Below are positions 20,184 through 33,769 of a DNA stretch of 33,769 nt, piece by piece. The notes below the pieces were generated by a model. It saw nothing but the letters and a program-made list of their open reading frames with translations. It was not told where the DNA came from and did not search any database. The stretch's first letter is position 1; each line of letters starts with the position of its first letter. The translations under genes and the position numbers were made by a program. Source of the stretch: Occallatibacter sp. (lineage in GTDB: Bacteria > Acidobacteriota > Terriglobia > Terriglobales > Acidobacteriaceae). The stretch is from assembly GCA_017883405.1 (NCBI GenBank), contig JADGNO010000176.1, positions 1 to 33,769 on the forward strand, read 5' to 3'.

Positions 20184-20506
20184 ATGAATCAATCCTCCTT
20201 TATGGGAATTACCAGTCCCCCAAGGGAGGGTGACGAAAGAGTTGAGTAATGAAAAGTAGGTGACCACAGTAACTTTGAAGGGGATTCTCAGCGGATTTTG
20301 AGAGAAATGACTGAAAGCGGCGCTCGGCGTCCGATCACGGACCGAAAACAGGTAAGCCGCTCGATGGGGACATTGGTAGGTCGAATCATCGAGTCTGCCG
20401 AAAAGAGCCTGATGTTTGGGTTCAAATTACCTATTGAGTTCCCGGTGTAGAATGCTCCTTCCGTTCAAAAGGGGTGGCCAACCACCCATGTAACAGGAGG
20501 AACGAC
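20184..20506. other. Divergent intergenic region between EAL and GH51 genes
   Basis: No gene is recognised in this 320-nt stretch. It holds two small inverted repeats, TCTCA-N8-TGAGA (20286-20303) and GTCCG-ATCA-CGGAC (20329-20342), either of which could be an operator for the arabinofuranosidase gene. A TAGAAT -10-like hexamer at 20448-20453 lies 54 nt before the GH51 ATG but has no convincing -35. The AGGAGG of the EAL leader ORF is at its left end. Confidence 0.4.
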
Positions 20507-22645
20507 ATGACGATCAGTCGGCGGGAATTTGTGGCGGCTTCAGTAGCAGGGGCAGCTCTGTTGAACCATGGAGTCAAGGCCTTCGCGGCTCCAGCGGGAA
20601 ATATCCAGGTTGGAATAGACGCGGCCAAGGTGGGCGCTCCAGTGTCTCCGATGATTTTTGGCGGGTACATGGAGCCGGCCACTACACGGGTGTGGGCTGA
20701 GATGCTGACCGACCGCAAATTCGGGCGGCCGATTACAGACGCGCAACCGCCTCAGGAGGGATCGTTCTTCCGTCGCATGGCCGGCGAGCCGTTCAAGCCG
20801 ATGGGCCCGGCGGGCACGGTGGAAATGGACAGCGAGAAGGCCTTTGTGGGCAAGCACAGCGCACGCATCAAGCTTGATGCTTCAGAACCGCACGGCATTG
20901 CGCAATCCAAGCTGCGCGTGGGCCAAGGCAGATCGTATGTGGGCCGCATTTATCTAGCCGGCGATGCCGGGGCCAAGGTTGTGGTCCGCCTTGTCTGGGG
21001 CGCAGGCGCCGGTGATTCGCAGACGGTTCAGATTCCCGCATTGTCCGGTCAATTCAAAAAGTTTCCGCTCAAGTTTACTTCGCCGGTCGACACGGACCAG
21101 GCGCGCTTTGAGGTTCTCGGCACCGGCAGCGGGACATTTCATGTTGGGAACGCTTCGCTGATGCCTGCCGACAACGTGCAGGGATTCAATGCGAGCATGG
21201 TGAAGCACATTAAGGAGGTCGGCTTCCTGATGGCGAAGTGGCCCGGCGGCAATTTTGTATCCGGTTACGACTGGTACGACGGCCTGGGCGATGCTGACAA
21301 GCGGCCGCCCAAACCGCAGCCCATGTGGTCGAACCGGATCGAGTCGAACGATGTTGGTATCCATGAGTTCATTGCTTTTTGCCGGCTGATTGGAGCGGAG
21401 CCGGACCTGGCTGTTAATACCGGGTTGGGAGAAGCTCGCGTTGCGGCCGAGCTCGTTGAATATTGCAATGGGACCGTGAATACGCGGCTGGGTAAGATGC
21501 GCGCGGACAACGGCCATGCCGAGCCATTCAATGTTCGCTGTTGGACGATTGGCAATGAGATGTACGGCCCATGGCAGTTTGGCTATATGCCGATGAGCCA
21601 GTACACCGTGAAGCACAATTATTTTGTTGAAGAAATGCGCAAGGTGGACCCGAAGATCAAGGTAGCGTGTGCCGGGGCGAGCATTTGCGAGGAGTCCTGG
21701 TGCGCAGCGGAACAGAAGCAGATGGAGCCGGGTTTCTGGCAGCCGCCGCTACTGGATAAGCTGCCTTTCAAACATGAATCGAAGAACGATTCTGACTGGT
21801 GGCTGCTTAAAGACAGTTCCGACTACATCGACTACATTTCCGAACATACCTATTGCTATCCGGACATGGCTTTCGATGCCGAGAAGCAAATGTATGTCGA
21901 CGTCACGGATCCGTTGCAACTGAGAACGCGCCGCATGGCAAATCGCATTGGCGCAGCTTTTGAAGCGTGGCAGTATTACGTGGAAAAGATGCCGGTGCTG
22001 AAATCAAAAAATATCAAGATCACATTTGATGAGTGGGGCTGCCGCTATCGCACGCCGCCGGGCCGCGCTCCGCAGCTGGTGGGAATGGTGACGGCGCTCT
22101 CGTATGCGGTCTTTCTGCATGAAATGTTCCGCCACTCCGACATGATCGATGTAAGTTGTCCAACGGGAGGGCTGAACACACTGCTGATGGACAGCACAGG
22201 ACAGGCTGTGGGACTGACGGCAGAAGCGCTGGTGATGAAGCTTATTCGCACACACTTTGTGGATGCGCTGCCGATTGTCGTCAGCGGAAACTCGCCGCAG
22301 GTGCCGATGCGAGGCACGCCGATGGTTGATATGGGTTCGGAACCGGTGGGAAGTCCGACCTACCCGATCGATGTTCTGGCAGCATTCTCGGGCGATCGGA
22401 AGACTTTTATTCTTTCCGTGATCAATGCTACAGAAGAAGCGCAGGAATTTATGCCGCAGATCAGTGGAGTCAAACTGCGCGGCACGGGTAAACTTTCGCA
22501 GCTTGTCGCTCCCAGTGCTACTTCAAACAATGAAGTTGGCAAAGAGCCGGTCGTCAAAATCGCTGAGAGTTCGGTGGGCGCGTTGCCTGAAAAGGTGCAG
22601 CTGCCGCCAGTGAGCGTAAGCATTTACCAATACGAAATCGCGTAA
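20507..22645 (+). CDS. Tat-exported alpha-L-arabinofuranosidase (GH51)
   Basis: This 712-aa enzyme begins with a twin-arginine signal (SRREFVAASVAGAALL). Its start at 20507 is fixed by AGGAGG six nt upstream. A beta-sandwich carbohydrate-binding-like region (about 60-230) precedes the GH51 TIM barrel. The acid/base Glu lies in WTIGNEMYGPW (about 348) and the nucleophile Glu in ITFDEWGCRYR (about 508), followed by the C-terminal beta domain typical of the family. It should release terminal arabinofuranose from arabinoxylan, arabinan or arabinogalactan side chains, in the periplasm or outside. The length fits long, CBM-bearing GH51 members. It is monocistronic and ends at a strong terminator. 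The minus-strand 220-aa ORF inside it is a shadow. Confidence 0.93.
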   Translation: MTISRREFVAASVAGAALLNHGVKAFAAPAGNIQVGIDAAKVGAPVSPMIFGGYMEPATTRVWAEMLTDRKFGRPITDAQPPQEGSFFRRMAGEPFKPMGPAGTVEMDSEKAFVGKHSARIKLDASEPHGIAQSKLRVGQGRSYVGRIYLAGDAGAKVVVRLVWGAGAGDSQTVQIPALSGQFKKFPLKFTSPVDTDQARFEVLGTGSGTFHVGNASLMPADNVQGFNASMVKHIKEVGFLMAKWPGGNFVSGYDWYDGLGDADKRPPKPQPMWSNRIESNDVGIHEFIAFCRLIGAEPDLAVNTGLGEARVAAELVEYCNGTVNTRLGKMRADNGHAEPFNVRCWTIGNEMYGPWQFGYMPMSQYTVKHNYFVEEMRKVDPKIKVACAGASICEESWCAAEQKQMEPGFWQPPLLDKLPFKHESKNDSDWWLLKDSSDYIDYISEHTYCYPDMAFDAEKQMYVDVTDPLQLRTRRMANRIGAAFEAWQYYVEKMPVLKSKNIKITFDEWGCRYRTPPGRAPQLVGMVTALSYAVFLHEMFRHSDMIDVSCPTGGLNTLLMDSTGQAVGLTAEALVMKLIRTHFVDALPIVVSGNSPQVPMRGTPMVDMGSEPVGSPTYPIDVLAAFSGDRKTFILSVINATEEAQEFMPQISGVKLRGTGKLSQLVAPSATSNNEVGKEPVVKIAESSVGALPEKVQLPPVSVSIYQYEIA

Positions 22646-24663: not shown

Positions 24664-25617
24664 TTATTGAGCAGAGCGGGGCGATCTGGCCTTCGTCAGC
24701 AACGCGTCAAATTCGGACCTCGGCATTTTCAGCATGTCCGGATGCGCCTCCACCCACTTCGCAAAAGCATCGTACTTATCCGCTGTCCATCCCCCTTCAA
24801 ACTGCGCGCCGTTCTTTCCCTCGCGATTCAATTCGAAGTTGAAGTCGTCTTTCAACGAGGTGAACTCCGCATAGCTGACTGCATCCTCCGCAAGAATGGC
24901 CGGGATAAAGATGACTCCTTCCGGCTTGCACAGAACCAGGTCTCCGGGCAGCACAACTGCGCGCCCTATGCGGATGGCGGCGTTGATCGAGGCCAGTTCC
25001 ATGTTGGCCCACGCCGACGGATCGTATCCGCGATAGAAGCCGTTGAAGTTTGGAATCTCACGATTCTCCTCCTGGTCGCGAATCCCGCCATCGAAGACAA
25101 ACCCGGTGTGAGTATGCGCCGCTACAGCGTTGCCTAGATTGGATCCGATCAAAGTTCCCTCGATCACCTTTCCGAATCCATCGGCCACATACACATCGCC
25201 AATCTGCAATTCGGCGATTGGCCAGCTGTTCGTTCCAGAGCCACGGCCGAGCAGGCGTCCTTCCGCTTTGCCTTCGGCGGCAATGGCCCTGGTCATGTCT
25301 GGACGCGAAGGCATGTATTGCGCCGTGAGTGCGCGGCCCGCAAATGGCTTGTCAATATGCAAAGCCTGCCATCCGGTGTCGAATTGATTGTTGTATCCCT
25401 GACCGCGCAAAAACTCCCAAATGTCTTCGATCGTCGTGTCGACCGCGCGCTTCAGGAGCGAGTCGGGCAGCCTGGGCCTGCCGTCCGGGAATCGATCGCC
25501 CTTCCATTCCGAGGTGTAGAAGAGTATCTGATCCCGAGTGGTCTTCGCCTGGCTGAACGCAGATGAGGGTGAAGTCGCAATGATGGCCAGAAGGAACGCA
25601 ACGACTATTTTTTTCAT
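24664..25617 (-). CDS. RraA-like family protein with signal peptide
   Basis: The protein is 317 aa from the ATG at 25617 (GGAGA eight nt upstream). It begins with a convincing signal peptide (MKKIVVAFLLAIIATSPSSAFS). The core fits the RraA / HMG-CHA aldolase fold: a small domain with IEDIWEFLRG, then IGSNLGNAVAAHTHTGFVFDGGIRDQEE, carrying the family's GGxRD motif, and a proline-rich end PGDLVLCKPEGVIFIP. Family members are RNase E inhibitors or divalent-metal aldolases/decarboxylases of hydroxy-oxo acids. Export to the periplasm rules out RNase E control here and favours an enzyme. It lies 114 nt downstream of the MR/MLE gene and is probably the last member of that operon. Confidence 0.88.
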   Translation of the reverse strand: MKKIVVAFLLAIIATSPSSAFSQAKTTRDQILFYTSEWKGDRFPDGRPRLPDSLLKRAVDTTIEDIWEFLRGQGYNNQFDTGWQALHIDKPFAGRALTAQYMPSRPDMTRAIAAEGKAEGRLLGRGSGTNSWPIAELQIGDVYVADGFGKVIEGTLIGSNLGNAVAAHTHTGFVFDGGIRDQEENREIPNFNGFYRGYDPSAWANMELASINAAIRIGRAVVLPGDLVLCKPEGVIFIPAILAEDAVSYAEFTSLKDDFNFELNREGKNGAQFEGGWTADKYDAFAKWVEAHPDMLKMPRSEFDALLTKARSPRSAQ

Positions 25618-25730
25618 CGTTCTAATCTCCACTTCAGTCAGGTGGTTGCAAGAGTCTGTGCTCGAATCGCACGCACATCAAATCGACAATTCATTTCGCT
25701 TATGAACAGAGCAGACCAATCAGCGCTCGA

Positions 25731-27101
25731 TCAACTGAACAACGCGTCGTCCCAAGACTGTGCTTCATCCCACATGGGCGTGGGGTCAAAGTAGGCGGTC
25801 CCCGGCTTCAGGTGACGCTTTACTTCTTCGTCGTTCAACGTGATGCCCAATCCCGGCTTGTCAGGCACAGTGATGAAGCCCTTGTTAACGATTGGTTTTT
25901 CGATGCCGGTCACCAAGTCCTGCCAGAAGGGCACATCGAGCGCGTGGTTTTCAAGCGCCAGGAAGTTGCGTGTGGCAGCGGCACAGTGAACATTTGCCAT
26001 GCAGCTTATCGGAGTCCCTGCAAAGTGCATGGCCATGGGGACGCCATGAGCGAACGCCATGTCGCCGATTCGATGGGTTTGCAGGATTCCGCCGGAGGTG
26101 GCAAGGTCCGGATGAATCTTATCCACGGCATGCTCGCGGCAAAGAGTTTCAAAGTCGGAGACCTGATAAATATCTTCTCCGGTGAGGATGGGCGTGGGGT
26201 TAGCCTCTCTGATTTCCTTCAGCAGATCGGTGTAGTACCACGGAACGACATCCTCCATCCACTCCAGATTGAACTTCTCATATGCCTTGCCGAGGCGAAT
26301 GACAGACTTGACGCCGATGTGGCCCAGATGGTCGATTGAGAGCGGCATATCGTAGCCGATGTTGTCGCGCACCGCAGCAACGTATTCACATAGCCGATCG
26401 ATGCCTTTGTCTGTCACTTCAGTCGCCATAAACGGGTGCGGCTGGCTGCGAAGCTCCCATTTGTCCTGCCCGGACGGTTGCATCACAGTGCCGGGGATTC
26501 CTTCGAGCACGTTGATACCGAGGTCCATTTTCACCCAAGTCAGGCCCATTTCTTTGCGCTCTTTGGCGCGGCGGCCGTACTCGGCCGGATCCATCGATTC
26601 GGTGGTATCGGCATAAATGCGAATCTTATCGCGCCATTTGCCGCCCAGCATCTGATAAACGGGAATGTTGTAGACCTTGCCAGCGATATCCCAAAGTGCC
26701 ATTTCAACGGCACATACTCCTCCGGCCTGTCGTGCGTTGCCGCCAAATTGCGCAATCTTCTGAAAGAGGTAATCGATGTTGAGCGGGTTCTCGCCCAGCA
26801 GCCGGCTCTTGAGCACCATCGCATACTGAGGACCCGCGATGTCGCGCACCTCTCCCAAACCGTACACGTCCTGGTTGGTGTCGATGCGAATGATGACGCA
26901 CGGGCTCGGGCCTGGCTTGACCACTACGGCATAGCGCATGTCGGTAATCTTCAATGTGGACGGGCTTGAGGCCTGATTCACATTCCTGATGGCAGGCTCC
27001 GTGGCTTCAGCGCTGCGACGAAATGCTCCGCCAGCCAGCACGGCCAATGAGGACTTGAGAACGCTGCGACGGTTGATGCGCGGCTTCCATGTTTCAAACA
27101 T
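25731..27101 (-). CDS. Tat-exported mandelate racemase/muconate lactonizing-family enzyme
   Basis: This 456-aa enolase-superfamily protein starts with a Tat signal (INRRSVLKSSLAVLAGG). The capping domain spans about 50-170 and the barrel follows. Likely catalytic and metal-binding residues are K191 (VKMDLG), D257 (SIDHLG), E283 (WMED), E309 (TGED), D332 and H359 (MHFAGTP). The pattern is closest to acid-sugar dehydratases such as galactonate dehydratase, which remove water from aldonic acids to give 2-keto-3-deoxy acids. The exact substrate is unknown. A Tat signal is unusual in this mostly cytosolic family but is seen in some environmental bacteria. Its ATG overlaps the ThuA stop by eight nt, so the two are translationally linked. 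Confidence 0.9.
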   Translation of the reverse strand: MFETWKPRINRRSVLKSSLAVLAGGAFRRSAEATEPAIRNVNQASSPSTLKITDMRYAVVVKPGPSPCVIIRIDTNQDVYGLGEVRDIAGPQYAMVLKSRLLGENPLNIDYLFQKIAQFGGNARQAGGVCAVEMALWDIAGKVYNIPVYQMLGGKWRDKIRIYADTTESMDPAEYGRRAKERKEMGLTWVKMDLGINVLEGIPGTVMQPSGQDKWELRSQPHPFMATEVTDKGIDRLCEYVAAVRDNIGYDMPLSIDHLGHIGVKSVIRLGKAYEKFNLEWMEDVVPWYYTDLLKEIREANPTPILTGEDIYQVSDFETLCREHAVDKIHPDLATSGGILQTHRIGDMAFAHGVPMAMHFAGTPISCMANVHCAAATRNFLALENHALDVPFWQDLVTGIEKPIVNKGFITVPDKPGLGITLNDEEVKRHLKPGTAYFDPTPMWDEAQSWDDALFS

Positions 27102-27984
27102 GGTGAATGCTTACCTTTCTCCAAGACTCTGCATGAAGAGAACGCGTTTCAGAAGCCTTGGCGGCTACCCAGCGCACGGCGTTGACCAGCATGGCCTGAT
27201 AGGCGGGATTTCCGTGGGCTTCGTTGGCATGGCCCAGCGCGATATTTACGATGCGTGTCTTTGGGTCATTGACCACCCACACTGAGGCGTATGCTTTCCC
27301 GCTTTCGGCTTCTGGACTGGTCTCTGCAAGCACATCGACTGGCGCGCCGGGATTGAATTCCATGCGATATTGTTCGTCGATGATTTTGAATTCGGCAGGA
27401 ACGCCGTGCATGACAGCGTGGGCGGGTTGGCGGTTGAAGACTGTGAACTCGCCGCGGCCATGGCTCCTGGCGCCTCCGCCCACGAACCGCTGATTGTAGG
27501 CGGGTACGTTTTGCCAGTTGAACCACGCGGCTGCGTGACAGACTACGACTCCGTGGCCTGCATCAGCGAAGGCATTCAGCGCGTTTTGAAAAGCCGGTGT
27601 GCCAAAGCTGGCGTGATTTGCACTGAATACGAGGACGTCAGCATGTGCGAGTTGCGCCACGGCTTCATCGGCATTCGAGGTGTAAGCTGTCGCAATTCCG
27701 CCGGCCGCATTGAGTGTGGCGTTGTCTGCGGCGTGAAAATAAGTTTCAAAATCGTGTGAGCTGCCGCCGCCAACAAGCAAGGTGCGGATGGTGCCGGCTT
27801 GCGGCTTGGCCGGAAGTGTTTCGCCACTGGCCGGCAATGCCTGCTCTGCGTCTGTGAGCAGGGCGGCCCCGAGGTGAGCTGCATGCGCAACACCGGTGGC
27901 TGCGCCGGCAATTGCCGCAGCCACGCCGACTCCTCCAACGCTCAATACTTTTCGGCGCGTAATTCTTGAAGCGTCGTCGGTCAT
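27094..27984 (-). CDS. Tat-exported ThuA-like domain protein
   Basis: This 296-aa protein opens with a Tat signal (ITRRKVLSVGGVGVAAAIAGAA). The rest is a ThuA domain, a class I glutamine-amidotransferase-like fold: LLVGGGSSHDFETYF, ADVLVFSANHASFGTPAFQ, GHGVVVCHAAAWFNW and RIVNIALGHANEAHGNP are its characteristic strands. ThuA proteins occur in trehalose and sugar-acid catabolic clusters and in many secreted bacterial proteins, but their reaction is not settled. The start overlaps the cupin stop as ATGA, and its own stop overlaps the next ATG, so it is part of a coupled operon. The product is expected in the periplasm, with the MR/MLE enzyme. Confidence 0.88.
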   Translation of the reverse strand: MTDDASRITRRKVLSVGGVGVAAAIAGAATGVAHAAHLGAALLTDAEQALPASGETLPAKPQAGTIRTLLVGGGSSHDFETYFHAADNATLNAAGGIATAYTSNADEAVAQLAHADVLVFSANHASFGTPAFQNALNAFADAGHGVVVCHAAAWFNWQNVPAYNQRFVGGGARSHGRGEFTVFNRQPAHAVMHGVPAEFKIIDEQYRMEFNPGAPVDVLAETSPEAESGKAYASVWVVNDPKTRIVNIALGHANEAHGNPAYQAMLVNAVRWVAAKASETRSLHAESWRKVSIHHV

Positions 27985-28415
27985 TTACTCACGTCCGCAC
28001 CGTGTCTTATGGCAGGTTCAATTTTGCAGTCAGGCATTGCCCGCAGAATTTCTTCCTGACCGGTTGGTCCGAATACGACGAGAAAGCGCAGAGTATTATC
28101 TCCGGTGTTCACTGTTTCGTGAAAGACGCCGGCGGGCAAGTGGATCAAGTCGCCGGCCACGACGCGGCGTCTTTGCTCTCCGCCGATGTCGACCATCTGC
28201 GTGCCTTCGCCTTCAATGACGTAGAGAATCTCCTCCATGTCGGGGTGGTTGTGACGGAGATGTCCCTTGCCCGGCTCAACGGTTACAACGCCGAGCAAGA
28301 ACTTGTCTGCGCCAGTGACCTTGGGCTCGCTGAGCCATTGCAGGCGGCCCCAATCAAAGGCCAGGGTTTCTACATCGTCGGGCTGTACGAATCGCTTACC
28401 GCTGATTTGAGTCAT
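27981..28415 (-). CDS. Single-domain cupin protein
   Basis: This 144-aa protein has both cupin motifs. Motif 1 is GHLRHNHPDMEEILYVIEGEG, with the HxH and Glu metal ligands. Motif 2 is GDLIHLPAGVFHETVNTG, with the fourth His ligand. A metal-binding jelly-roll enzyme or sugar-acid-binding protein is expected in the cytoplasm, as it has no signal peptide. Isomerase, dioxygenase or sensor functions are all possible. The ribosome-binding site GGAGGA is strong. The gene lies 23 nt after the TIM-barrel gene and overlaps thuA by four nt. Confidence 0.9.
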   Translation of the reverse strand: MTQISGKRFVQPDDVETLAFDWGRLQWLSEPKVTGADKFLLGVVTVEPGKGHLRHNHPDMEEILYVIEGEGTQMVDIGGEQRRRVVAGDLIHLPAGVFHETVNTGDNTLRFLVVFGPTGQEEILRAMPDCKIEPAIRHGADVSK

Positions 28416-28438
28416 GAGACTCCTCCGTGAGGACTTGA

Positions 28439-29272
28439 TTATGGCTTCGAGATGACAGCCTTTTTGAACGATCGGGTCTGTTCGGTAATGGCGCGCTCAA
28501 CGGCGAGCCGCTCAATGCTTGAAGCTCCGAAGAAGCCGTGCACGCCCGTGGTGTGTTCATAAATGAATTGCGAGTCTGCGGGTTCGGCGATGGGACCGCC
28601 ATGGCAGATGACCAGGATGTCTGGATTGATGGCGGCAGCTGCATCGCGAATCTCCTGAACTTTGACGGCTGCATCGGCGAGCGTCATGGATGTGTGTACA
28701 CCGATGCTGCCGCCGACCGTGCATCCCATATGGGCCACCAGAACATCGGCTCCTGCCCTGGTCATCTTCACCGCTTCGTTCACGTTGAAAACGTAGGGGC
28801 AAGTCAGAAGATCCAACTGGTGCGCAATCCGGATCATTTCCACTTCAAGGTCATAGCTCATTCCCGTCTCTTCAAGATGAACGCGGAATGTGCCGTCGAT
28901 GAGCCCGACGGTTGGGAAGTTCTGCACACCAGCAAAGCCAAGATCGCGAATCTGCGGCAGAAACCTGTGCATGCGCCGGAAGGGGTCGGTTCCGCAAACG
29001 CCGGCGAGGACGGGCGTGTGCTTGACCACGGGCAAAACTTCTTCAGCCATTTCAACCACAATCTGATTTGCATCGCCGTAGGAGAGCAGCCCGGCACTGG
29101 ATCCGCGGCCCGCCATCCGATAGCGGCCGGAATTATAAATAATGATCAGATCTGCGCCACCGGCTTCAGCAAACTTGGCTGAAATTCCTGTGCCCGCGCC
29201 GACGCCAAGAATGGGCGATCCGGCACGAACCTGTTCGCGCAGCCTGGCAAGACACTGCTCGCGTAACGTCAT
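28439..29272 (-). CDS. Phosphoenolpyruvate-hydrolase-family TIM-barrel protein (Tm-1 C-terminal half)
   Basis: This 277-aa cytosolic protein matches the PEP-hydrolase-like TIM-barrel family (TIM-barrel signal-transduction-type domain). Typical strands are [61 protein letters not shown] and [15 protein letters not shown], with [13 protein letters not shown] near the end. Homologues form the C-terminal half of the tomato Tm-1 protein. The reaction is not firmly established, though a phosphoenolpyruvate-mutase-like or aldolase-like role fits the fold. Its ATG overlaps the Tm-1-like N-terminal gene stop as ATGA, and AAGGAG lies upstream. The pairing suggests the two proteins work as a complex. 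Confidence 0.88.
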
Positions 29273-30504
29273 GCGTTTTTCTTCTCCTTTACGATCTCAA
29301 GAAACTCTGCAAACAGCCGCGCCGCGAACGATGGGTCATTGATGTGCGCGTCCACCTCAACCAGTTTGACCGCAGGCTTTATGTACTGCCTGATCGCATT
29401 GAACAAAGCCTCATCGGCTTCGTGGCTGTAAAACGGCTGGCCTGGACAATCGATTGCTGAGACGCCGCGCAGTGGTAGCACGATGGTTACAGGGCCCATG
29501 GCTGCGCTGGCTCTCTCGGCAATCTGTTTACCAAGGATCGCATTTTCGGCGGGCGTTGTGCGCATCAAAGTGACGGACGAATTGTGGCGGTACAGCGTGC
29601 GCTCGCGATATTTTTCGGGGACGGTTTCGAAGGGACCGAAGTTGACCATATCGATGGCGCCGACTGAAATCACCTGCGGCACGCCGCAGATTCCGGCTTC
29701 CTGCAGGCGATTGGGACCGGCGGAAAGAATTCCACCGGCCAGCTCATCTGCAAGTTCAGTTGTTGTAATGTCAATAACGCCGCAGGCAAGGCCCGAGCGG
29801 ATGATCTGTTCCATGCTCTGACCGCCGACTCCGTTGGCAGAGAAGACGAGCACTTCGAATCCAGCCTTCTCCAGCATGCCTCTTACCTGGGTGACGCACG
29901 GCGTGGTAACGCCAAACATGGTGGCGCAGACCAAGGGGCGGTCTGCGACGAACTGCGGCGTCGGCAATCCACACATTCCGGCCATGGCGTTGGCGGCGGT
30001 TGTGAGCACATTGCAGGTGACGCGATTCAAGCCGGCGATATCAGAGACAGCGTGCATCATCAGCATGTCTGAGCCGCCCACGTAGGACCGGACGTTGCCT
30101 GAGGCCGAAGTTGAAACCATCAGCTTGGGCACGCCCAGCGGCAACTCTCTCATGCCGGCGGAGGCAACGCTGGTGCCGCCTGAGCCGCCAACTGCGAGCA
30201 CACCTGCAAGCGGTTGCTGACGATGACGCTCGCTGAGCCACTCGGCAAGCCCGACCTGCATGGTCATGACGGCCTGACCACGGTCGCCACCGGAGATTAG
30301 TGCTTCAAGCGAGCTCCCGCCGCGCAGGGCAATCTGTTCGCGAGTAATGTCGGGTGTAAACGGCGGCGGCCCCAGAATACCCACGTCAATGACGATGACG
30401 TCGATTCCGAGCGAGCGCAGATGGTCGCGCAGAAACCTGACCTCATCCCCTTTGGTGTCGAGAGTTCCGATAAGTGCGACTGGACCACGCGGATTGAGCT
30501 GAAT
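29269..30504 (-). CDS. Tm-1-like ATP-binding (UPF0261) protein, non-canonical ATT start proposed
   Basis: The ORF track begins at a GTG (30384) inside the conserved domain. Reading the same frame upstream recovers family-typical sequence, [23 protein letters not shown] then [12 protein letters not shown], back to about 30480. The frame stays open to a TGA at 30538-30540, but contains no ATG, GTG or TTG before the GTG. An ATT at 30504-30502 with GGAGG five nt upstream is the best start, giving 411 aa, the normal length of the family. The rest ([37 protein letters not shown]) is typical. Family function is unknown; the tomato homologue Tm-1 binds a viral replication protein. First gene of the operon. 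Confidence 0.85.
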
Positions 30505-30565
30505 AACTTCCTCCGAAGTACTGATTGAAACTGTATCTCAATGGCTCATAGTCCATTTGGGGTGG

Positions 30566-30595
30566 AATGTATTCTCGTCCGTCGAACGTTGTCAA
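30566..30595 (-). promoter_or_regulatory. Sigma-70-like promoter of the Tm-1/MR-MLE operon
   Basis: On the minus strand a perfect -35 TTGACA (30595-30590) is followed after 18 bp by TACATT (30571-30566). This would place the transcript start about 54 nt before the proposed ATT codon. The -10 lies within the inverted repeat GAAT-GT-ATTC (30565-30574), a possible operator. Confidence 0.65.
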
Positions 30596-30685: not shown

Positions 30686-33631
30686 TTATTGGCCCGCAGC
30701 CACTGTTTGAAGGGAAAAAAGCGAACCGCGCGCGCCGATGAACAGTGTTTTTTTATCTGCTCCGCCAAAGGCGAGACTGCTTGGCCGCTCCGGAATTTCA
30801 ACTATGCCGATTTGCTTTCCGCTGGAGTTGTAAATGTAGAGCTGACCTTCTGCTACGTACACGTTTCCGGATGCGTCCGCTACAACGCTGGAACCTCCGC
30901 GCGTTGCAAATTCGGAAGCTGTGGCATGGGCAAGGCTATCAAGTCTCAGGTGATAGGTGGCGTCGTCTTCTTCGCTTGCTACCAGGTGCTCATCGCCGAC
31001 GCGGAAGAGCCGCCATTGCGATGTTTGCAGCATGGGCTGCCAGTTACCGCCAGCCATAATGGCGTTTGAAGTGCCGGAAGCATAATAGAAATTACGCGGC
31101 TCATCCTTTACAACGGCCTGGATAGCCATGTTGCTACGGCCTGCGTAGACCACGCCTCGGCGCTCCATCTGCATCATCAGGGTTTCCATGCTGTTGTGGA
31201 AGCCGACCGGCAGCATGAGATTTGTATCGGCGACGGATGCGCTTACGCCGTCGATTTTCTTTGCTTCACCGGATTTGGTGTCAACGCTGAAGACCGTTCG
31301 GCTGTAGTCCTGAACCAGTAATGAGCCGCTGCCGGCGAAGGCCGCGGCCATGGGCGTTTGCACTTTGTCGGTCAGCAGTTCGGCCTTCTTTTCGTCTGCG
31401 TTCCACTTGTAGATATGGTGCATGGCGGCGTCGGTGAAAAACAGGTGTCCGCTTTCGTTGGTAGTAAGCCCGGCAATGTTGCTGAAGCCGCTTGCCACCT
31501 GTTCCAACGTTGCGCCGGCTGCGAAAACGCCCGCAGGCAGGGGCAATGGGGTACCAGCTTTGACTTCCGAATTCAGCGTGAAGGTTGTGAAGTCATGGGT
31601 GCGGATGCGCACGCCGCTGGTGGCGTCAAAGAAACTGTTGTCGAATGCAAGGCGCGTCATGCTGAAGTCGTGCACGTTTTCGAAATGAACGTCGCTTGAG
31701 TTTGCTGCTTCAACCGCGTTCAGCTTGGGCAGCACGTTTCGCGACACGCGGTACATGAACAGATTCGCGAACAGCATCTGATGCGCGTCTTTAAATTCGA
31801 TGGAGAACGAGTCGGCGCCGGCGGGGTTTTCTTCCTCGGTTTGCAACGCGTACACCGTCCAGTTTGACGCGTTATGGAATTGCGTTTCGTGTTGCATGTG
31901 GTGCTCGCACGACATCTGGTAGACGATGCTGGGCGTGGTTGTGCTTTCAACCAGCAGGCCGGCTCTCGCCAGCGTGTTCGCTGTCCACACGCCGCGGAAG
32001 ATGCCGCCGCCACCATCTTTCACCCACAGGCTGGGATATTGCGCTCCTGCTCCTGCGTTTGGATTGAAGGCTCCTGGACTTTGCGGCTGCGCAGGCCGGG
32101 GTAGATTTGGATTGAGCGCGGAATTTCTGCGACCCGGCCCACGCATGAAATTCACATCTTCAACGAACGACGCAGGACCAGCGCGCCATACAAGTCCTGC
32201 TGCGCGGTGGTCCTGGGGCGAGGTCAGGATGCCGATGCCGGTCATGATGGCCGCGCCGCCTTTGGCGCTCTCAACCAGCGGCACTGCCTCGCCTTCGCCG
32301 GTAAAGTTTGGCGCATCGTCGGTTGCCACAATCACAGCAGTCACGGGATTGAAACCGATCAGCACGCTGTCCGGCTTGAGTTGCAGCGTGTTTGTTACGC
32401 GATAGGTGCCGCTGGGGAAATACAGAATTCGATGCGCATCGATGGCGGCCTGCAACGCCGCCGTGTCGTCAGAGCCGTCTCCTTTGACGCCGAGTGAGTG
32501 CACGTTGACCCACTGCTGCATGGGCGGCAGGGCAGGGATGTCGGATGCTACAGCTTTGTCTGCGCCGGAGCGCTCGCGATGGTGAATTTGTACTCCGCTC
32601 TCGCGTCCGTCAGGGCCGATTGCAAGGCCAATGGTCAGATGCTCCTCAACAAAAGGCTTGGTGCTTCCTTTCACAGCGAATGTCGAACTTGAACCGTCCT
32701 GCCCTTGAATCAATTGCGGCACGTTTTTGCAGACGATGCGGTCAAGCGTTACCTGGTGATGCGCCTTGCGGGCATCGCCAAGCACGATTGCAGAGTGGCT
32801 GATGTCTTCAAGCACCAGGTCGCGGCCGTACAACTGCTCTGTCATTCCGTGCGTGATTTCGACGGCCACCGGTGCCTGCGCAATGCGATCGCGGATCAGC
32901 GTCATGCCAACTTCCTGCGTATGGATGGCCGCCTTCTTCTGGCCGGTGATGCTGGAATCCATCAGCAGAAATTGCCATGCGGGTGAGGTGCGAACGGAGA
33001 TTATGCCGTATTCGCCACCCTCAATTTGCAGGTCGATTGCGCCATTGCCCACATCTTCAAGCGCGGCCCGGCCATCGCCCACCTTGAACCGCATGTGCTG
33101 AACAAACGAGTGCTGCGCCACATGAAACCGCACCGCGATTGCTGCCGGATTTCCGGCGCCGACCTCGAAGTCGAGGTTCATGATTCCGCTGTAGAACGTG
33201 AACTCGTTTGCGTCCATCACAGGCTCACTGGCCTGGGGGCGCATTGAGGAAAACTGAAGCATGTACCGGCCGGTTCCCAGAAATTCGTGGCCTTCCTGAT
33301 AGCCGGGTGTGTTTGCTCCCAACACAAACACAGGGCGATGCGCGCCGTAGCCAATGAGCCGGATGCCCGACCACAGGCGAATCGTGTGACTGAGGCGATA
33401 TCTTCCTTCGGCGACAAAGACGATGCCCTGGCCGGTCGTCTCTGAAACGTGATCGATGGCGGTCTGGATGGCAGCGGTATCGTCGGCCTGCCCATCGGCG
33501 ACTGCGCCGAAAGCGCCACGCTCAAGATAGACCGCGTGAGGATCGTCTGGCCGCACCGTATATATGGATTGGGCTGAGAGTTGATATGAGGCCAACGTAA
33601 CAAAAAGAGATATTGAAATAAGGCAACGCAT
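30686..33631 (-). CDS. Secreted tandem beta-helix protein (GH55/pectate-lyase-3 type) with C-terminal propeller
   Basis: This 981-aa protein has a signal peptide (MRCLISISLFVTLASYQLSAQS); the start at 33631 is chosen for that, with GGAG ten nt upstream. Two beta-helix domains of the pectate-lyase-3 superfamily start with matching motifs: GAFGAVADGQADDTAAIQTAI near residue 38 and LGVKGDGSDDTAALQAAID near 378. Tandem helices of this kind are the layout of GH55 exo-beta-1,3-glucanases. From about 700 to the end, repeats such as GFSNIAGLTTNESGHLFFTD and GSSVVADASGNVYVAEG indicate an NHL/SMP-30-type beta-propeller. A secreted polysaccharide-active or binding enzyme is likely; the substrate is unproven. 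It is upstream of, and codirectional with, the Tm-1 operon. Confidence 0.85.
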   Translation of the reverse strand: MRCLISISLFVTLASYQLSAQSIYTVRPDDPHAVYLERGAFGAVADGQADDTAAIQTAIDHVSETTGQGIVFVAEGRYRLSHTIRLWSGIRLIGYGAHRPVFVLGANTPGYQEGHEFLGTGRYMLQFSSMRPQASEPVMDANEFTFYSGIMNLDFEVGAGNPAAIAVRFHVAQHSFVQHMRFKVGDGRAALEDVGNGAIDLQIEGGEYGIISVRTSPAWQFLLMDSSITGQKKAAIHTQEVGMTLIRDRIAQAPVAVEITHGMTEQLYGRDLVLEDISHSAIVLGDARKAHHQVTLDRIVCKNVPQLIQGQDGSSSTFAVKGSTKPFVEEHLTIGLAIGPDGRESGVQIHHRERSGADKAVASDIPALPPMQQWVNVHSLGVKGDGSDDTAALQAAIDAHRILYFPSGTYRVTNTLQLKPDSVLIGFNPVTAVIVATDDAPNFTGEGEAVPLVESAKGGAAIMTGIGILTSPQDHRAAGLVWRAGPASFVEDVNFMRGPGRRNSALNPNLPRPAQPQSPGAFNPNAGAGAQYPSLWVKDGGGGIFRGVWTANTLARAGLLVESTTTPSIVYQMSCEHHMQHETQFHNASNWTVYALQTEEENPAGADSFSIEFKDAHQMLFANLFMYRVSRNVLPKLNAVEAANSSDVHFENVHDFSMTRLAFDNSFFDATSGVRIRTHDFTTFTLNSEVKAGTPLPLPAGVFAAGATLEQVASGFSNIAGLTTNESGHLFFTDAAMHHIYKWNADEKKAELLTDKVQTPMAAAFAGSGSLLVQDYSRTVFSVDTKSGEAKKIDGVSASVADTNLMLPVGFHNSMETLMMQMERRGVVYAGRSNMAIQAVVKDEPRNFYYASGTSNAIMAGGNWQPMLQTSQWRLFRVGDEHLVASEEDDATYHLRLDSLAHATASEFATRGGSSVVADASGNVYVAEGQLYIYNSSGKQIGIVEIPERPSSLAFGGADKKTLFIGARGSLFSLQTVAAGQ

Positions 33632-33769
33632 AAGGAATTCACTCCGGCAGATCAAGCATATTTGCGACCAACCTTTATACCGCATTCCGTTGGTCTATGG
33701 CGTTACGCACCGACACAAGAGTCATCCCCGAATTTGCCGGCGCGCGGCCGAGTTTTGGGGCAATCGGAA
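33632..33769. other. Upstream edge region, no gene assigned
   Basis: These 138 nt precede the beta-helix gene. On the minus strand a TATAAA (33679-33674) could be its -10, without a convincing -35. One frame from the right edge runs to a stop as PKLGRAPANSGMTLVSVRNAIDQRNAV. It may be the end of an upstream gene, but I do not recognise it. Confidence 0.3.

Follow-up and report, generated by a model that had tools for sequence, protein, structure and literature searches.

Six co-directional genes on the minus strand of a contig from an Occallatibacter sp. (the window, that is, the whole 33,769-nucleotide stretch analysed) form an apparent operon in which two conserved modules have been combined locally, and it is proposed, at a probability of roughly 45%, that this combination is a composite carbohydrate-acid catabolic operon. 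The genes encode a UPF0261/Tm-1-like protein (Tm-1), a PEP_hydrolase-type TIM-barrel protein (TIM), a cupin, a ThuA-domain protein, an enolase-superfamily MR/MLE protein and an RraA-like protein, and all six products exceed the curated Pfam cut-offs (UPF0261 N and C, PEP_hydrolase, Cupin_2, ThuA, MR_MLE N and C, RraA-like). As a working division, module A comprises Tm-1 and TIM, often with the cupin and in Acidobacteriota with ThuA, and module B comprises the MR/MLE and RraA genes. In module B, the MR/MLE protein, exported by the twin-arginine translocation (Tat) route, would probably act outside the cytoplasmic membrane, removing water from a sugar acid of aldonic or uronic type to give a 2-keto-3-deoxy acid, which the Sec-exported RraA-like protein would probably cleave or decarboxylate. 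The product would be imported by components encoded elsewhere in the genome and passed to module A, which would here share one substrate with module B: the cytoplasmic UPF0261 protein would phosphorylate it, and cleavage would fall to the TIM-barrel protein, which has the PEP-mutase/isocitrate-lyase fold. Precursors would be handled by the exported ThuA protein and by the cupin, the latter as an isomerase- or mutarotase-like protein.

An earlier note on this DNA had read the genes as one catabolic operon, with dehydration outside the membrane followed by aldol-type cleavage. What it observed is confirmed and its interpretation is partly supported: the exported dehydratase-family and aldolase-family pair is present and the catabolic character is supported, but one conserved five- or six-gene operon is not. 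A survey of 300 genomes of the family divides the six genes into two separately conserved modules, so that one conserved six-gene pathway was rejected, and among these genomes the two are adjacent in the window only. The TIM family, PF09370, exceeds its cut-off in 10 of the 300 genomes and the Tm-1 family, PF06792, does so in the same 10. Orthologues of the MR/MLE protein, at 67-90% identity, occur in 32 genomes (window included), and in 22 of these an RraA homologue lies within 5 kb, as counted from match coordinates; several of the remaining genomes are split across contigs at this site. Of the ten genomes that have module A, seven also have the MR/MLE gene (Fisher p ~8e-6; 5e-5 with the window's own genome left out; 3e-5 at genus level). 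In the six other genomes with both modules these lie on different contigs or, in one case (G034), about 0.7 Mb apart; some contigs are short, as in G137, and a break could hide closeness of the two.

Read directly, the Tm-1 (29269-30504) and TIM (28439-29272) genes overlap at an ATGA, a gap of 23 nt separates TIM from the cupin gene (27981-28415), the cupin and ThuA (27094-27984) genes overlap at a second ATGA, and ThuA and MR/MLE (25731-27101) overlap by 8 nt; these junctions and the five gene assignments, also borne out by the Pfam matches, are as the earlier note gave them. Three of the four junctions therefore overlap, which suggests translational coupling. The RraA-like gene (24664-25632) follows after 98 nt if it starts at GTG or 113 nt if it starts at ATG, and no terminator-like site was found on the coding strand in this gap. 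Upstream of Tm-1 there is a sigma-70-like promoter candidate (30566-30595, minus strand), in which the perfect TTGACA that had been pointed out is present at 30595-30590 and is followed, after a spacer of 18 nt, by TACATT (10 of 12 consensus positions). However, five promoter-like sites were observed in the region against 2.6 expected in shuffles and, because this count is near the shuffled expectation, the candidate is considered weak and is set aside as evidence. Base composition is uniform across the cluster, except that the GC content at third codon positions is somewhat lower in ThuA. A foreign origin of module A, judged by base composition, was considered and gave no clear signal.

Since no other sampled genome shows the two modules joined, it is possible that module A was inserted upstream of a resident MR/MLE-RraA pair and that the neighbours are fortuitous, sharing a transcript and acting on different substrates. 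Both modules also occur alone, the MR/MLE gene stands elsewhere in varied gene orders, and no close relative of the window ThuA protein was found in the other 299 family genomes. This explanation is doubtful for three reasons: first, the overlapping junctions include that of 8 nt between ThuA and MR/MLE and suggest translational coupling; second, the near-uniform base composition gives it no help; third, genomes that carry module A are enriched for module B. The opposite explanation, one integrated linear pathway of all six genes as the earlier note proposed, would account for the single-strand run, the coupled junctions and the one promoter candidate, but is improbable since no other sampled genome has all six genes together and the modules are conserved separately.

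Module A is widespread. A scan of the genomes of 84,980 species gave 80 proteins closely related to TIM, from many phyla, most with Tm-1 directly upstream, and the two genes adjoin in most phyla sampled. Poribacterial TIM genes are mostly without Tm-1 upstream; in several of these loci (L033, L061 and others) a TIM gene with no Tm-1 nearby stands beside a PhyH-family protein. A related cupin adjoins the pair in Actinomycetota, Latescibacterota, Sporosarcina and some Acidobacteriota, and an annotated cupin occupies the equivalent place in Mesorhizobium and Sinorhizobium and follows Tm-1 in Phyllobacterium. The Sinorhizobium Tm-1-TIM-cupin genes stand with a divergent sugar ABC transporter, as do Tm-1 and the cupin in Phyllobacterium. 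In Bacillota a second PF09370 protein often precedes the pair (for example L018:7430-8662) and the one tested is fused to an AraC-type helix-turn-helix DNA-binding domain, which suggests that the barrel may be usable as a ligand sensor. The 87 neighbour proteins of Tm-1/TIM in other phyla are mixed (ABC, MFS, EamA and Gfo/Idh/MocA families) and point to no single substrate class. In one locus a protein of the 3-keto-disaccharide hydrolase family (L165:1347-2258) follows the pair and hints at a link to 3-keto-sugar metabolism.

The window Tm-1 protein (411 aa; UPF0261 N 204 bits and C 299 bits, cut-off 27) is proposed to be a small-molecule kinase. Its predicted model (mean predicted local distance difference test score 86, predicted template modelling score (pTM) 0.58) is closest among solved structures to plant Tm-1 and to 9mpy, the UPF0261 protein Saro_1862 of Novosphingobium aromaticivorans, and sequence gives the same relatives. 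Saro_1862, the closest solved bacterial UPF0261 structure, contains bound acetovanillone and is ~33% identical to the window protein over a nearly full-length alignment; according to a 2026 paper, acetovanillone catabolism in this organism begins with MarK, a single-component kinase (PMC13101465). The TIM protein (277 aa; PF09370, 435 bits), a putative lyase, is predicted as a TIM barrel (pTM 0.85) whose fold matches are headed by 2p10, followed by methylisocitrate lyases and a carboxyphosphonoenolpyruvate phosphonomutase (Foldseek E ~1e-10 to 1e-9). It is 59% identical to 2p10, its nearest relative of solved structure and itself a putative phosphonopyruvate hydrolase, and only 15-17% identical to the lyase and phosphonomutase matches. 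Because a UPF0261 protein is seen with acetovanillone bound, with MarK as a lead, and because the partner has a lyase-like fold, the proposed and most economical reading of the pair is that a kinase acts first and a lyase second. In the literature searched, no paper assigning a function to the UPF0261-TIM pair was found and a paper on the plant origin of the fusion was alone informative on UPF0261/PF09370; the passages of it that were consulted give no catalytic function for the pair (PMC5028733).

In Acidobacteriota the pair keeps further company. Exported ThuA-domain proteins were found in seven acidobacterial Tm-1/TIM loci (the window, L096, L097, L101, L167, L168 and L169); because L096 is related to L097 and L167 to L168, the number of independent cases is about five. 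A ThuA profile found none in 20 MR/MLE control loci and none in the 80 loci of the broad scan; since most of the sequences behind the profile were the positives themselves, this absence is to be read as a lower bound. The window's own 3.84 Mb genome has four ThuA matches, from which ~0.3 would be expected in the ~0.3 Mb examined, and the Poisson probability of at least five ThuA loci is ~2e-5, a rough figure that ignores the relatedness of the loci. The window ThuA protein itself (296 aa; PF06283, 86 bits, cut-off 33.4) is 20-27% identical to the three others aligned in full, and in L096/L097 and L167/L168 the ThuA domain is part of a larger protein that also contains either a cupin or DUF7133 plus a cupredoxin-like domain. 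As a consequence of this divergence and of the different fusions, the association of ThuA with Tm-1/TIM seems to have arisen several times. The fusions in L167 (4961-8587) and L168 (5102-8812) are exported proteins of ~1200 aa with ThuA, DUF7133 and cupredoxin-like domains and are encoded directly downstream of Tm-1/TIM. A search of the literature for ThuA with 3-keto sugars found nothing useful. A wider possibility, unlikely as it is at present, is that UPF0261 and TIM form a kinase-lyase couple that defines an undescribed catabolic route, its substrate being a sugar acid or a modified sugar. In Acidobacteriota this route would be supplied by an exported ThuA protein, and in the window by the exported dehydratase and aldolase as well, such that the handling of an acid sugar would begin outside the membrane and continue inside it.

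Module B points to sugar acids. The neighbourhoods of 20 MR/MLE genes contain exported UxuA-like and ManD-like proteins, DUF362, Gfo/Idh/MocA, an IclR regulator and galactonate/fucose-type MFS transporters, types that occur in several genomes each or singly, and this company supports a sugar-acid role. In the MR/MLE protein (456 aa), a putative sugar-acid dehydratase, the metal ligands D257/E283/E309 and the D332-H359 dyad are invariant in a ten-sequence alignment. The RraA-like protein (322 aa; PF03737, 58 bits), of the class II aldolase/decarboxylase family, has a conserved R185-D186, and falls below the named-family cut-offs for HMG/CHA aldolase (38 bits against 304.5 and 179). The remaining explanation, that the cluster serves an aromatic, lignin-derived ketone, with UPF0261 phosphorylating a phenolic ketone and the RraA-like protein acting as an HMG/CHA-type aldolase of aromatic catabolism, draws on the acetovanillone in Saro_1862 and the MarK kinase, on the place of HMG/CHA aldolase at the end of aromatic 4,5-cleavage pathways (PMC5065237) and on the aromatic-type look of some Tm-1/TIM neighbours, but is highly improbable given that the tested genes in and around the cluster include no carboxylase or ring-cleavage enzyme, that MR/MLE-RraA neighbours in relatives are sugar-acid proteins and that the identity of Tm-1 to Saro_1862 is only ~33%.

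The division of the proposed sugar-acid pathway between compartments follows from the export signals, which were called by eye and not with a predictor. The Tat signals that had been noted on two proteins are seen as twin-arginine leaders, NRRSVLK in MR/MLE and TRRKVLS in ThuA; the RR pair is invariant in 20 MR/MLE sequences including that of the window while the remainder of the leader varies, and R11, R12 and K16 are invariant in the ten-sequence alignment. The exported character of the RraA-like protein, likewise noted earlier, holds for it and its orthologues, which have a Sec-type leader, and the cupin (144 aa; Cupin_2, 64 bits) has no signal peptide that could be seen. TatC was not found in the window's own genome, a metagenome-assembled genome estimated at 78% completeness (340 contigs, the window being contig C22), but is present in 17 of 17 relatives searched, and is therefore probably missing from the assembly.

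Several points weigh against the composite sugar-acid operon. Modules A and B adjoin in one genome of the 300, and their co-occurrence is confounded by phylogeny and genome content, making it an association and not proof of joint function. The cluster encodes no importer; it had been said earlier that neither transporter nor regulator is present, which is true of the cluster, but relatives carry both beside one or other module (MocR-type, IclR or GntR/TetR regulators and TonB, MFS or ABC transporters). Elsewhere the neighbours of Tm-1/TIM include branched-chain-type ABC transporters and a fumarylacetoacetate hydrolase, which are unlike sugar catabolism. The MR/MLE protein reaches no named-dehydratase cut-off (NCBIfam equivalog), the best being galactonate dehydratase at 187 against 311 bits, and in its D257-H258-L259 a leucine occupies the position, two residues beyond the first metal ligand, where the five PDB matches listed have histidine. 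This D-H-L is kept in the orthologues, and H258 or H261 might stand in for the missing histidine. Finally, the fold comparison of Tm-1 adds little beyond sequence because its pTM is only 0.58, and the identity of Saro_1862 with MarK, though probable, is inferred from organism and ligand.

If the proposal is true, the exported MR/MLE and RraA-like proteins would dehydrate the sugar acid and cleave the keto acid without either step taking place in the cytoplasm, and to our knowledge no described pathway does so. Module A is the more interesting part, in that the genes which repeatedly accompany it make a long-standing unknown open to test: the UPF0261-TIM pair is found across many bacterial phyla, and as a fusion in land plants, its function is largely unassigned, and the cupin and exported ThuA beside it, together with a ligand-bound UPF0261 structure and the lyase-like fold of the partner, make kinase-then-lyase a directly testable hypothesis.

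At the 5' end of the cluster, the Tm-1 frame does reach 30504, as had been claimed, but contains no ATG, GTG or TTG ahead of residue 41. The ATT at 30504 sits 5 nt after GGAGG, directly downstream of the Shine-Dalgarno-like GGAGGAAGTT (30505-30514, minus strand), and is likely the start, as a rare start codon, or else reflects an assembly error at this base. The next gene upstream on the same strand (30686-33685) encodes a 999-aa protein in which two stretches are pectate-lyase/RHGA-like and the C-terminal region is SGL-like; a homologue (36% identity) lies near an MR/MLE orthologue in locus L153. On the opposite strand near the cluster, an alpha-L-arabinofuranosidase-like protein (20474-22645) has a Tat-type leader by sight. 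The open reading frame tables of the compared loci are computed calls and not curated annotation; plain longest-frame calling missed high-GC genes and was replaced by a codon-position-weighted caller, which still missed some genes, such as TIM in L167.

Among known systems, the KDG kinase/KDPG aldolase branch has the same logic as the pathway proposed here, namely to dehydrate, phosphorylate and cleave; it uses other protein families, and in the window dehydration would be placed outside the membrane. The MR/MLE protein shares the metal triad, the D-H dyad and the two-domain architecture with the sugar-acid dehydratases GalD, ManD and RhamD, but is Tat-exported, lies below all named-family cut-offs and has D-H-L for D-x-H. 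The R185-D186 of the RraA-like protein corresponds by motif to Arg-123 and the metal ligand Asp-124 of HMG/CHA aldolase (PMC5065237) and PF03737 is common to both; the window protein differs from the HMG/CHA aldolase/RraA family in being exported, in its extra N- and C-terminal regions and in its scores below the named-family cut-offs. Tm-1 belongs to the same Pfam family as Saro_1862, whose ligand is aromatic, and TIM has the barrel fold in common with the PEP-mutase/isocitrate-lyase enzymes at low identity. The closest precedent for the pair is UPF0261-TBST, which is reported to be fused in plants as Tm-1-like and encoded by separate genes in bacteria, with co-occurrence and co-evolution of the two (PMC5028733). 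The window has both domain families, likewise as separate genes, and adds to them a cupin, an exported ThuA protein and an operon shared with MR/MLE.

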